Source: Dongia deserti (lineage in GTDB: Bacteria > Pseudomonadota > Alphaproteobacteria > Dongiales > Dongiaceae). From it: 64,000 nt of DNA. Position numbers and translations under genes: made by a program. The stretch is from the NCBI RefSeq assembly GCF_003574735.1, contig NZ_QORW01000022.1:1-64000 (forward strand), written 5' to 3'. Below the pieces are notes generated by a model that saw nothing but the letters and a program-made list of their open reading frames with translations, did not search any database and was not told where the DNA came from. How positions within the stretch are numbered: position 1 is the stretch's first letter; each line of letters begins with the position of its first letter. This document shows positions 45,706 through 50,093 of this stretch, one piece after another.

Positions 45706-46947
45706 TCACTCGCCGCGCAGCGCTGCCAACGCGGCCTCCGCCGCCGCTTCGCCGGTCAGATGCGCGCCGTGGACATCGCCCATGTAGCAATGGTGAACGG
45801 CCTCGCCGGCGAAGAACAGGCGGTGCTCGATCGGCAGTCCCAATTCCGCGCGCGCAGCATAGCGTCCAGGTTTGGCGGCGGCATAGCAGCCTCTGATCCA
45901 GGGATCGTGATCCCAGTCGGCAAAGACGATCCGATCCGTCACGCACGCCTTCACGTCGTTACCGAAGATTGCCGCAAGCTGCGTCAGTGCGTAATCCGCC
46001 GTGGGGCGCGCGCCTTGCGCAGCCAGTTCTTTGGCGAACGGACCATTGAGCATGGCCGTGACGATGTTATGGCCGCCTTCGCGCACCACGAATTCGACCG
46101 ATTCGGTGGCGCCGAGATCCGGCATGAGCATCATCGAGTCGACATCGCCGAACGGATTCCGCGTAAAGCCGAGCGCGACCTTGTTGCAGCTGCCGAGCGG
46201 CAAATCGGCGATCGCCTGCTGCTTCCGGTCGGGCAGTGATGGACTGAAACGGATCACCTCGTTCGCCAGCACGCCGGTGGAAACCGCGATGATCACCGCG
46301 CGCGCTTCGATCGTGCCGCGCGGCGTTTCCACCGCAACCCCGTTCCTGCCGCCCCAGGCGATGTGCGTTGCCGGTGTTTCCAACTCAACCGGAATGCCCT
46401 GCGCATGGCGCACAATCAGAGCGCCGAAGCCATCCAGGATCGGCCAATCGTCGCCCTCCCAGACATAGCGCGCGAAATCTAGAGCCGAGGATTGCGCAAG
46501 CGTCACGCCTTGCTTGGCGATGAAGTTCGCCTCGAAGAAGTCGTGCCATTTGCCGCGGACGGGAAACAGCGCGGAGGCGGGGCAATCATGCTCTCCGTCA
46601 CCGATCGCGGCGATCTTAGCGAAGCAATCGTCGACATAGGCGAAGCATTCATCATGCTCGGGGCCGGAAAGGATGGCCCGGTTACGCGCGACGCGAAAAT
46701 CCTCCGGCCCTTGTTTCACGTGGAACAAATAGCGATCGACCAGCGGAGTCAGTGGGTTGAGCGCCGGCGAGTGCAGCCAATGCCCACCGAGATCAACCGG
46801 CGCGCCGAGCGTGGCGCTGTCCGTGACGACGCGGCCGCCGATGTGCGGCTTGGCCTCGAGCAGGCGGAACGAGGCGCCCTTGTCCACGAGGCGCCGCGCC
46901 GCAGCCAATCCGGCGGCACCTGCGCCGATGATGACGATATCCAGCAT
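45706..46947 (-). CDS. FAD-dependent amine oxidase (monoamine oxidase-like)
   Basis: A 413-residue flavoprotein of the monoamine/polyamine oxidase family that should oxidise an amine to imine with release of H2O2. The FAD Rossmann motif is VIIGAGAAGLAAARRL close to the start, with LLEAKPHIGGRV and DLGGHWLH as the usual second block. The C-terminal FAD block LFFAGEAVHHCYMGDVHGA is clear. ATG 46947 (MLDIVIIGAG) follows GGGAG; the frame is open to 47139 but homology starts at 46947. No covalent FAD Cys is evident. Substrate unknown; fits the amine-catabolic theme of the window. Confidence 0.85.
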   Translation of the reverse strand: MLDIVIIGAGAAGLAAARRLVDKGASFRLLEAKPHIGGRVVTDSATLGAPVDLGGHWLHSPALNPLTPLVDRYLFHVKQGPEDFRVARNRAILSGPEHDECFAYVDDCFAKIAAIGDGEHDCPASALFPVRGKWHDFFEANFIAKQGVTLAQSSALDFARYVWEGDDWPILDGFGALIVRHAQGIPVELETPATHIAWGGRNGVAVETPRGTIEARAVIIAVSTGVLANEVIRFSPSLPDRKQQAIADLPLGSCNKVALGFTRNPFGDVDSMMLMPDLGATESVEFVVREGGHNIVTAMLNGPFAKELAAQGARPTADYALTQLAAIFGNDVKACVTDRIVFADWDHDPWIRGCYAAAKPGRYAARAELGLPIEHRLFFAGEAVHHCYMGDVHGAHLTGEAAAEAALAALRGE

Positions 46948-47081
46948 AATGAATCTCCCGAATGCATGACGGGCTGCCGATGAGCGGCACCTCCGCCATG
47001 CGTCTTGTCCCAAGAAACGCAAGGAGCCGTTCCCAGCGAGGCGCGCCTCGTTCAGGGAATCGCTGCGCGGGAGATCAGGAG

Positions 47082-47217
47082 ATGGACCAGTACAAGGAAG
47101 CGGCCTTTTGCTGAGTGGAGCAGTATCTTGGCCAGCCACCGGCGTAGAATCAAGTCATCTGGCAGTACGGCGAGCGGCGCTCAGGGGGCACAAGTCCGTG
47201 GCCTTGATGGATCCCGG
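47082..47217 (+). pseudogene. degraded 5' duplicate of the M20-like amidohydrolase gene
   Basis: MDQYKEAAF begins at 47082 after a GGGAGATCAG leader much like that of the intact gene at 47704 (MDRYKEAVF). In the same frame VEQYLG matches VDRHIG and NQVIWQYGE matches NQIIWHYGE. The codons at Trp11 and Trp22 of the intact gene are TGA (47112-47114) and TAG (47145-47147) here. After 47174 one base must be added to restore the frame, giving ALRGHKSVAL beside ALREYKSAAW. About 43 codons remain; the rest is replaced by the VOC gene, whose stop is at 47218. Confidence 0.75.
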
Positions 47218-47586
47218 CTATTGGTGGACCGCTTCGAGCTTGTGGCCGTCGGGGTCGGTCACGAAGGCTGCGTAGTAGGTCGGGCAGTAGTGCGGCCTCA
47301 AGCCGGGTGCGCCACTATCGCGGCCGCCCAGACGCAAGGCCGCCGCGTGAAAAGCATCGACTGCGGCCTGGCTCGGCGCTTCGAACGCCAGATGGAAACC
47401 ATGACCCGGCGGCGATGCCGCAGCAGCCGGGAACAAGGCGAGCTTGTCATTGCCACCGGCTGTGCCGTAGCCGACGCCGTCCGCATTGCTCCAGACGCGG
47501 ACGTACCCCAACGCCGACAAGACGCCGTCATAGAACGCCGCCGCCAGGTCGAGATCGGCGACGCCGAGTGATACATGGCTGAGCAC
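47218..47586 (-). CDS. VOC family protein (glyoxalase-fold)
   Basis: A 122-residue single VOC-superfamily protein of the dioxygenase/glyoxalase type. It opens MLSHVSLGVADLDLAAAFYDGVLSALG in two blocks and closes YYAAFVTDPDGHKLEAV, the usual beta-alpha-beta pattern, with H4, H62-H64 region and the final E as possible metal ligands. Most relatives are annotated glyoxalase/bleomycin-resistance-like, of unknown substrate. The gene is minus-strand and convergent on the relic at 47082-47217; its promoter would lie in the gap before the amidohydrolase gene. Confidence 0.8.
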   Translation of the reverse strand: MLSHVSLGVADLDLAAAFYDGVLSALGYVRVWSNADGVGYGTAGGNDKLALFPAAAASPPGHGFHLAFEAPSQAAVDAFHAAALRLGGRDSGAPGLRPHYCPTYYAAFVTDPDGHKLEAVHQ

Positions 47587-47703
47587 GTCTGCTCCCCGCG
47601 ATCTGTCCCGACATTCTTTGCGTGATGGCGAGATGGGTCAATCCCCGCCACTTGTCGCCGCTGACGCAACTCGCCATGCTGCCCACGGACAGGAGATCAG
47701 CAT

Positions 47704-49287
47704 ATGGACCGATACAAGGAGGCCGTGTTCGCTTGGGTAGATCGCCACATCGGCAATCTCTCGGACTGGAACCAGATCATCTGGCACTACGGCGAAACGG
47801 CGCTGCGCGAGTACAAGTCCGCCGCCTGGTATGTCGCACGCCTTAAGGAAGCGGGTTTCGAGGTCGAGGCCGGCACTGGCGGCATGCCGACTGCCTTCCG
47901 CGCCACCTGGTCGAACGGCGAGGGCCCGCGCATCGCGGCTTATGCGGAGTACGATGCGGTGCCGGGCAACTGCCAGGCGGCCGCCACCAGCAAGATGCCG
48001 CGTGCCGGCCTGTCGCCCCATGCCGGCGGCCATACCGATCCGCACTCCGCATTGGGCATTTCGGCGCTGGGCGGCGTACTGGCCGCCAAGGCGGCGATGA
48101 CGGAGATAGGGCTCAAAGGCACGATCGTGTTTTTCGGCGAGCCGGCCGAGAAGCTGCGCCTGTCGAAACCGGTCCATGCGGCTAAAGGCTATTACGAGAA
48201 CCTTGACGCGGCGATCAGCTTTCATCCGACCTACATGCTGCCGCTGGTGAACACGGCGCGCTGGGATACCCATTGCGGCGCCGGGTATGCCTGCATCTAC
48301 ACCTTCGAATGTCCGGAGCCGGAAAGCTGGCTCAGCGACTCGAGCTCGCCGATCCCGGCCAGCCACGTCGCGGCGCGGGCGCCGGGAGCGACCGACGCCT
48401 TGTTCCACATGTTCGGGCTAACGAAGCAAACCCAATCCAACATGCTGCCCTTCACCCAGGGCTGGTCGTTGAGCGAGGCGATCCTGACGGCGGGGCAGGC
48501 GACGGCGGACAACCTGCCGGCCCAGATCGCCGAGATCCAGTATCTCTGGCGCACGCCCACCATTGAAATGGCGGAGCAGGTCGCACGCGTGCTCGACAAC
48601 AATGCCGAAGCCGCCGCCAAAGCCGCGCACTGCACCTGGAAACGCACCTGGGTGACCAAATCGCGGCCTGGCCTGCCCAACCATGCGCTAGCCGAGGCGA
48701 CCTATCGCAACATCGTGCTGGCCGGCGCGCCGAAATGGGGCGAGGAGGCGATTCGCTTGGCGCGGGAGATCCAGAAGGAACTGGGCCTTACGCCGATGGA
48801 CAAGCCCTATCTCAGCGCCTGCGAGACCACCATCCCTCCTATGGAGGCGGAGATGAAGCTGCGGCAGGATTTGCCGCCGTCGCAGCTCAATTCCACCTCG
48901 GACGATTACACCGAATACTGCTGGCACTGCCCGACGGTGCGCTTCTACATCGCGCGACCGATGCTGAAGGCGCCGAAAGGATTCAGCTATCCGGCCTGGG
49001 CGATGAATGCCCTGGGCGGCCTGAGGCCCTGCATCGATCCCATGATCCGTACCGCCGCCAAGACCGTTGGGGCGACCATCACGGACCTCCTGTCTAACAG
49101 CGAGCTGCTGCGGAACGCCCAAGGGGAATGGCGTCACCGGACCGGCGGCATCAGCGGCAAGGATTGGGTGGCACCCCTGCTGCCCAAGGACTTCCGTGTG
49201 CCGCTGGATTTCCGCTGGCCGGAATATGTGACGACAGCGCGCGGCGAAGAATGGTGGATCCCGACGAGAGGGGAGGAACGGTTATGA
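47704..49287 (+). CDS. M20-like amidohydrolase, AbgB-related, altered metal site
   Basis: A 527-residue peptidase-M20D-like enzyme related to AbgB, the p-aminobenzoyl-glutamate hydrolase subunit. It has AYAEYDAVPG (about 80-88), then PHAGGHTDPHSALG (105-118), FFGEPAEK (143-150) and SFHPT (172-176). In AbgB these blocks are HGCGHNLLGT, GCPGEEGG and WHPE, so the metal-ligand Cys becomes Gly (G108) and the second Glu of the EE pair becomes Lys (K150), while the first Glu is kept. That points to a one-metal or otherwise changed active site. ATG 47704 follows AGGAGATCAG. The stop overlaps the SDR start (ATGA). Substrate unknown; probably an amide. Confidence 0.8.
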   Translation: MDRYKEAVFAWVDRHIGNLSDWNQIIWHYGETALREYKSAAWYVARLKEAGFEVEAGTGGMPTAFRATWSNGEGPRIAAYAEYDAVPGNCQAAATSKMPRAGLSPHAGGHTDPHSALGISALGGVLAAKAAMTEIGLKGTIVFFGEPAEKLRLSKPVHAAKGYYENLDAAISFHPTYMLPLVNTARWDTHCGAGYACIYTFECPEPESWLSDSSSPIPASHVAARAPGATDALFHMFGLTKQTQSNMLPFTQGWSLSEAILTAGQATADNLPAQIAEIQYLWRTPTIEMAEQVARVLDNNAEAAAKAAHCTWKRTWVTKSRPGLPNHALAEATYRNIVLAGAPKWGEEAIRLAREIQKELGLTPMDKPYLSACETTIPPMEAEMKLRQDLPPSQLNSTSDDYTEYCWHCPTVRFYIARPMLKAPKGFSYPAWAMNALGGLRPCIDPMIRTAAKTVGATITDLLSNSELLRNAQGEWRHRTGGISGKDWVAPLLPKDFRVPLDFRWPEYVTTARGEEWWIPTRGEERL

Positions 49288-50093
49288 GCAGCGCAAGCGA
49301 TCATGGGGGCGACTACGCACCGAACTTCGATCTGACAGGGGCGGTCATGCTGGTCACCGGTCCGGCCCGCGGGCTGGGGCGCGCCAGCACGCTGGCCTGC
49401 GCGGCGGCCGGGGCGGACATCGTGCTCGGCCTTCGCGACTTGAGCACCGATGGCGGCCTTGCCGCCGAGATCGAGGGGCTGGGGCGGAAAGTGCTGCCCC
49501 TCCAGCTCGACGTCACCAGGATGGATCAGATCAGGGACGGCGTGGCCCGTGCGCTGGACCGGTTCGGGCGGATCGACATCCTGCTCAACAATGTTGGCGT
49601 CGGACCGGAAAACCCGGCGGAAAAGGTGATGGAGGCGGACTTCGACTTCACCGTGAACGCCAATCTCAAGGGTACGTTCTTCGTGACCCAGGCGGTCGGC
49701 CGGAGCATGATCCAGCGCAAGAAGGGCCGGATTATCAATATGAGCTCCCAGGCCGGCAGCGTCGTCCTGCATGGCGAATCGATCTATTGCATGACCAAGG
49801 CGGCGATCAATCACCTGACCCGCTGCCTCGCCTCGGAATGGGCGCCGTACGGCATCACCGTCAATAGCATTGCCCCGACCTTCATCAATACTGACGGGAC
49901 CGCGCCAGCGTTGTCCGACCCGGACTTCAAACGCAGGACCCTGGCCCACATCCCCCTTGGCCGGATCGGCGATCCCAAGGACGTGGCCGCCGCGATCGTC
50001 TTCCTGGCATCGCCGGCAGCATCGCTTATCACCGGCACCAACCTGCTGGTGGATGGCGGATGGTCGGTCGCCGACATGCGATCTGCGCTCTGA
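49284..50093 (+). CDS. SDR family oxidoreductase (amidohydrolase operon)
   Basis: A 269-residue classical SDR. It has VTGPARGLGRAS (cofactor loop; TGxxxGxG-type), ILLNNVGVG in place of NNAG, INMSSQAGS with the catalytic Ser, and ESIYCMTKAAINH with Tyr and Lys, then NSIAPTFINTDGTAP and a usual TGTNLLVDGGWS C terminus. It is coupled to the amidohydrolase by ATGA overlap, so it may act on the alcohol or ketone side product of amide cleavage. This is inference from context. Confidence 0.87.
   Translation: MSSASDHGGDYAPNFDLTGAVMLVTGPARGLGRASTLACAAAGADIVLGLRDLSTDGGLAAEIEGLGRKVLPLQLDVTRMDQIRDGVARALDRFGRIDILLNNVGVGPENPAEKVMEADFDFTVNANLKGTFFVTQAVGRSMIQRKKGRIINMSSQAGSVVLHGESIYCMTKAAINHLTRCLASEWAPYGITVNSIAPTFINTDGTAPALSDPDFKRRTLAHIPLGRIGDPKDVAAAIVFLASPAASLITGTNLLVDGGWSVADMRSAL

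Follow-up and report, generated by a model that had tools for sequence, protein, structure and literature searches.

A dead copy of a hydrolase 5' end beside a VOC gene in Dongia deserti and its proposed origin

Upstream of an intact amidohydrolase gene of Dongia deserti lies a short stretch of DNA that reads like the beginning of the same gene, which raises the question of what it is, from which gene it was derived and how it came to stand against a VOC (glyoxalase-like) gene. The window, that is, the whole stretch of DNA analysed, comprises the first 64,000 nucleotides of contig NZ_QORW01000022.1, and an earlier note on it had claimed that positions 47082-47217 hold a recognisable copy of the hydrolase 5' end with its leader and ATG. 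When 47040-47260 was aligned locally, as DNA, with 47600-49400, positions 47070-47204 paired with 47692-47827 at a score of 67, far above shuffled sequence (500 dinucleotide shuffles of the query; mean 22.0, maximum 32), and a looser alignment, starting at 47068/47690, paired 47068-47204 with 47690-47827. By alignment and whole genome match the relic is thus placed at 47068-47204 on the forward strand and comprises the leader, the ATG at 47082 and some 41 hydrolase codons. The claimed extent holds as regards the presence of a relic, but the clear match stops at about 47204, ahead of a junction zone with the end of the VOC gene (47205-47217) in which the boundary was placed by eye to within about 13 bases. 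Read from 47082, the relic frame is MDQYKEAAFC*VEQYLGQPPA*NQVIWQYGERRS, and its counterpart in the intact gene is MDRYKEAVFAWVDRHIGNLSDWNQIIWHYGETAL. As the note had said, Trp11 is TGA and Trp22 is TAG, while the third Trp (27) is intact, and a single base is missing downstream of the NQVIWQYGE codons, which shifts the frame. The RBS-like stretch and the ATG are both preserved, the gene body is absent, nothing is recognisable beyond about codon 45, and the VOC gene indeed sits where the remainder of the copy would be. A search of the organism's own genome with the hydrolase protein (E <= 0.001) found two places, the intact gene and the relic, the latter at E 8.4e-4 over residues 1-32 with one TGA and one TAG. 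Positions 47068-47204 hold a dead copy of the hydrolase 5' end. It is an ordinary gene relic, sharing truncation, two stops and a frameshift with the usual bacterial pseudogene remnant and differing from it in nothing essential. An assembly artefact is unlikely, because the two copies are only 68% alike (94/138).

The intact gene (47704-49287, forward strand) encodes a protein of 527 aa, which matches the NCBIfam amidohydrolase model TIGR01891 (E 4.3e-27) over residues 20-183, at 95.2 bits and hence under the curated cut-off of 153.75. No family was returned by a Pfam-A search, even at E 10, and the sequence match to the solved structure of HmrA (PDB 3ram) is weak (E 1.1e-7). The label "M20-like" is that of the earlier note, and no profile search result names family M20. 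Relatives at about 50-65% identity occur in records titled Bacillus, Chloroflexi and Bathyarchaeota. It may be noted that the relative in G010 (locus L017, G010:C1:1558807-1560375) has one in-frame TGA in the whole genome match, possibly a pseudogene or a sequencing error.

The order of features in the window is oxidase, 134 bp to the relic ATG, relic, VOC gene, 117 bp, hydrolase and SDR dehydrogenase. The left neighbour, a flavin amine oxidase (45706-46947, reverse strand; Pfam PF01593, E 1.3e-50), occupies this place in each of the four genus genomes. The VOC gene (47218-47586, reverse strand; PF00903, E 2.7e-12) is preceded by a promoter-like site, TTGACC-17-AAGAAT (47613-47641, reverse strand), which is a consensus match only. 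Then follow the leader of the intact hydrolase (47651-47703, forward strand; left limit approximate and set by eye), which is the second copy of the repeated stretch, and, beyond the hydrolase and overlapping its end, the SDR gene (49284-50093, forward strand; PF13561, E 2.8e-62). A second relative of the oxidase (35%) is present elsewhere in the same genome (G000:C44:183219-184446) split between two matches that overlap in different frames, one of them containing a TAG, and is perhaps another broken gene.

We compared this locus with the genus as far as it was found, which is four genomes including the window's own (G000), the other three (G001, G002 and G003) being metagenome assemblies of the same genus, G001 68% complete. 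In G001 the order is oxidase, 104 bp, intact hydrolase start and SDR, with no VOC gene between oxidase and hydrolase. In G003 it is oxidase, 18 bp, VOC, 122 bp, hydrolase and SDR, and in G002 oxidase, 15 bp, VOC, 114 bp and hydrolase, with no match to the SDR beside the hydrolase in G002. The relic is absent between oxidase and VOC gene in both G002 and G003. When its DNA was searched for in 21 genomes (own included), matches were found in the four genus members, and those in G001-G003 fall on the hydrolase start itself. The VOC gene of the window is 79% identical to those of G002 and G003, the next best being 53% or less (six genomes: G000-G003, G009, G014), and the VOC genes of these two relatives are likewise preceded by TTGACC.

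The note had taken the relic for a former duplicate, since lost, and had proposed looking in related genomes for a second full amidohydrolase at this place. At E <= 0.001 hydrolase matches occurred in 45 of 116 genomes (own included), many of them weak, and G001, G002 and G003 had a single match each, so that no second full gene was found among the four genus genomes (G001 being 68% complete). That two complete hydrolases once flanked the VOC gene, the copy on the oxidase side having since been mostly deleted, is nevertheless what a true 5' copy with leader and ATG that ends at the VOC gene might suggest. For such a history the gene must have been duplicated, the VOC gene inserted and sequence deleted. 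Against it, each of the three relatives has one hydrolase match and nothing is recognisable past about codon 45, and a recent version of it is rejected by the AU test described below; an old version is possible, and we consider the reading as a whole improbable. A full second hydrolase gene, though possible, is unnecessary for explaining the relic.

Whether the relic was copied from its own neighbour was judged from its affinity, a test which rests on about 138 bases. It is identical to G001 at 113 of 138 bases, to G002 at 104 of 137, and to its own intact gene and to G003 at 94 of 138 each. At the 32 sites where its own gene and G001 differ, the relic agrees with G001 at 22, with its own gene at 3 and with neither at 7, and the split of 22 to 3 has p 0.00016. 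Over 75 loci, the same three genomes included again, its best local scores were 148 with G001, 110 with G002 and 65 with G003. In a tree of the 5' end a branch separates relic and G001 from the rest (98.2/97); we count this tree as unrooted, since the outgroups are poorly attached, within the opposite side. The full-set AU test compared six trees over 122 relic bases on the fixed backbone ((G000,G002),G003), with G009 and G014 as outgroups and G011 left out. Relic with G001 was best (0.955), followed by relic with G002 (0.079), relic outside all four (0.061), relic as sister of the G000+G002+G003 gene (0.058, 6.9 log units below the best), relic with its own gene (0.035) and relic with G003 (0.031). 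On the 5' end alone, again with six trees, relic with G001 was best when G000 was joined to G003 (0.983) and was disfavoured (0.037) on the species-tree backbone, with G000 joined to G002; relic with its own gene gave 0.0007 and 0.0035 in two trees, relic with G002 0.002, and relic beside G000+G003 0.015. A recent tandem duplicate of its own gene is therefore rejected, both by the AU results (0.035; 0.0007 and 0.0035) and by the 22-to-3 sites. Relic with G003 is rejected too (0.031), and relic with G002 is rejected by the 5' end (0.002) but not by the full set (0.079). Of the claim of a lost duplicate there thus remains a dead 5' copy, which is older than the note supposed. A relic next to an intact gene, it follows as a warning, need not have been copied from that gene. 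Outgroup states are mixed at the seven sites that unite relic and G001, and polarity is therefore unreadable there. Either an early copying of the gene, near the base of the genus clade, or an origin on the G001 side is possible, and the poorer score of the tree that makes the relic sister to the G000+G002+G003 gene leans towards the latter.

We consider, with a probability of about 0.5, that the relic is the old hydrolase start beside the oxidase, severed from its gene by the VOC gene, the stretch having been duplicated at insertion. In this history, the simplest one, the ancestral state would have been a hydrolase start lying divergently beside the oxidase, as it still does in G001. In the lineage that gave rise to the window's species and to the two relatives closest to it the VOC gene, with a promoter of its own, would have come to separate that start from a second one, which carries the working gene, and the start on the oxidase side would have become a stump. 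The repeated stretch runs from the leader to about codon 41, and the duplication was therefore most likely of that stretch only and not of the whole gene, as in an insertion with partial target duplication. Left without a gene body, the stump would thereafter have accumulated its two stops and frameshift, and it would have been lost entirely in G002 and G003. The homology, the stops, the neighbours in four genomes and the exclusion of a recent copy of its own gene are results, and the mechanism of insertion, its occurrence in a single step, the direction of change and unconstrained drift are inferred.

The DNA between oxidase and relic bears on the same proposal. The intergenic stretch 46948-47067 on the oxidase side resembles the oxidase-hydrolase intergenic stretch of G001: with the relic leader included (to 47081) the score is 49, which was reached by none of 500 single-base shuffles. 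Most of this likeness comes from the last 18 bases; without them the score is 34, reached by 9 of 1000 shuffles, and the G001 leader (34) then fits about as well as the window's own second leader (33), which counts against the proposal. The leader of the intact hydrolase, compared likewise with the G001 leader without the last 18 bases, scored 46 (0 of 1000 shuffles).

The reading of the stump as the old start has to be weighed against the order of the species. A tree of secA, gyrB and infB (4635 columns filled in all five genomes) gave (((G000,G002),G003),G001) with supports 99.2/98 and 100/100; infB is merely a fragment in G001 and G003, between which its identity is oddly high (91.9%), and dnaK was left out, its matches in G001 being short only. 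A 12-kb stretch around rpoB (12003 columns) also joined G000 with G002 (99.9/100), with 154 supporting sites for G000+G002, 113 for G002+G003 and 98 for G000+G003, while rpoB by itself weakly joined G000 with G003 (87.4/82). With the order ((G000,G002),G003), the compact oxidase-VOC junction that G002 and G003 share does not map simply onto the species tree, and an insertion with duplication in the common ancestor therefore requires two losses of the stump. The old-start reading thus needs two such losses that left nearly the same short gap between oxidase and VOC gene each time. The alternatives to a double loss are a later entry of the stump into the line of the window's species and an exchange of the locus.

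An exchange would mean that a haplotype of G001 type was joined to one of G002/G003 type, an ordinary homologous exchange having made one junction and an illegitimate join the one at the VOC end, so that stump and working gene would come from different parents. The compact junction of G002 and G003 would then be ancestral and the double loss unnecessary, and relic with G001 is the best of six trees on the full set as well as the best of six on the 5' end. Furthermore, PMC3240628 and PMC5361080 describe joining in bacteria with one homologous and one illegitimate end. Homology-facilitated illegitimate recombination of the kind described there would account for one homologous and one non-homologous junction and for a native stub beside an incoming gene, but the junction here is located only to within about 13 bases (47205-47217). 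Against such a mixed origin, the window's oxidase is near those of G003 and G002 (82.8% and 80.2% of bases) and not that of G001 (67.2%), and its first bases, judged by eye, also side with G002 and G003; an import anchored in the oxidase would therefore have to stop at about its start codon, and by eye no imported tract is seen at the oxidase start. The tree of the intact hydrolase, in which the inner order is unresolved, likewise keeps G001 outside G000+G002+G003 (99.5/95). We regard this exchange as possible though somewhat doubtful. For the severed old start, one uninserted relative and two stump-free relatives make the order of events almost readable, and the locus would preserve, in a small way, the record of a gene arriving between divergently oriented neighbours.

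If the relic is such a stump, it would be expected to have drifted without constraint. Its differences from G001 are distributed over the three codon positions as 7/7/10, statistically compatible with evenness (p 0.39), and those of the intact gene from G001 as 5/5/17, which is uneven (p 0.002). The contrast between the 7/7/10 of the relic and the intact pairs is not significant (p 0.17 and 0.10), and the relic is uneven against its own gene (9/9/21, p 0.01) and against G002 (7/7/16, p 0.03). Decay without constraint is therefore compatible with these counts, which hold too few sites to prove it; the stronger sign of decay lies in its stops and its lack of a gene body. The suggestion that the relic displays which residues survived longest is not borne out by these counts, and nothing indicates that the residues still in agreement were selected. 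It is very improbable that the stretch was retained for a function, for instance to encode a short leader peptide or to regulate the oxidase: the RBS-like stretch and ATG are unbroken, but the stretch is missing between oxidase and VOC gene in G002 and G003, and a consensus scan, which misses other promoter types, found no sigma-70-like site in it.

Insertion with long target duplication was reportedly described by Nobusato et al. in 2000. In such an event the insert lies between direct copies of the target, a relative with the empty site has a single copy, and both copies derive from one target. In the window the direct copies 47068-47204 and 47690-47827 flank the VOC gene at 47218-47586, and G001 provides the empty-site relative, with a single hydrolase copy and no VOC gene between oxidase and hydrolase. 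As to a single target, the relic as sister of the G000+G002+G003 gene had AU 0.058, and relic with G001 was preferred. The locus shares with the known cases an inserted gene between two direct copies far longer than a transposon duplication, one copy on an intact gene and the other an orphan fragment. It differs in that the copies are 68% alike (94/138) and were perhaps not identical at the start, and in the nature of the insert, since PMC3031569 describes such insertion for restriction-modification genes, the insert in the window being a VOC gene. That this gene and its promoter, an ordinary metabolic unit bearing no restriction-modification or transposon function, entered by an insertion that duplicated some 140-200 bp of the target (upper limit by eye) is a specific form of the proposal which we hold to be doubtful. 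Another genus of the family (G007; locus L037, G007:C102, 5850-8759) has a 79-bp copy of the hydrolase 3' end, at 90% identity, 2.75 kb downstream of the intact gene, and between the two 3'-end copies are ORFs that match models of an Eco57I-type methylase and a XamI endonuclease. Here a restriction-modification module has probably been inserted, with long target duplication, into a relative of the hydrolase gene at its opposite end. If both this case and the VOC insertion are true, such duplication would mark a general route of gene insertion, not one peculiar to restriction genes.
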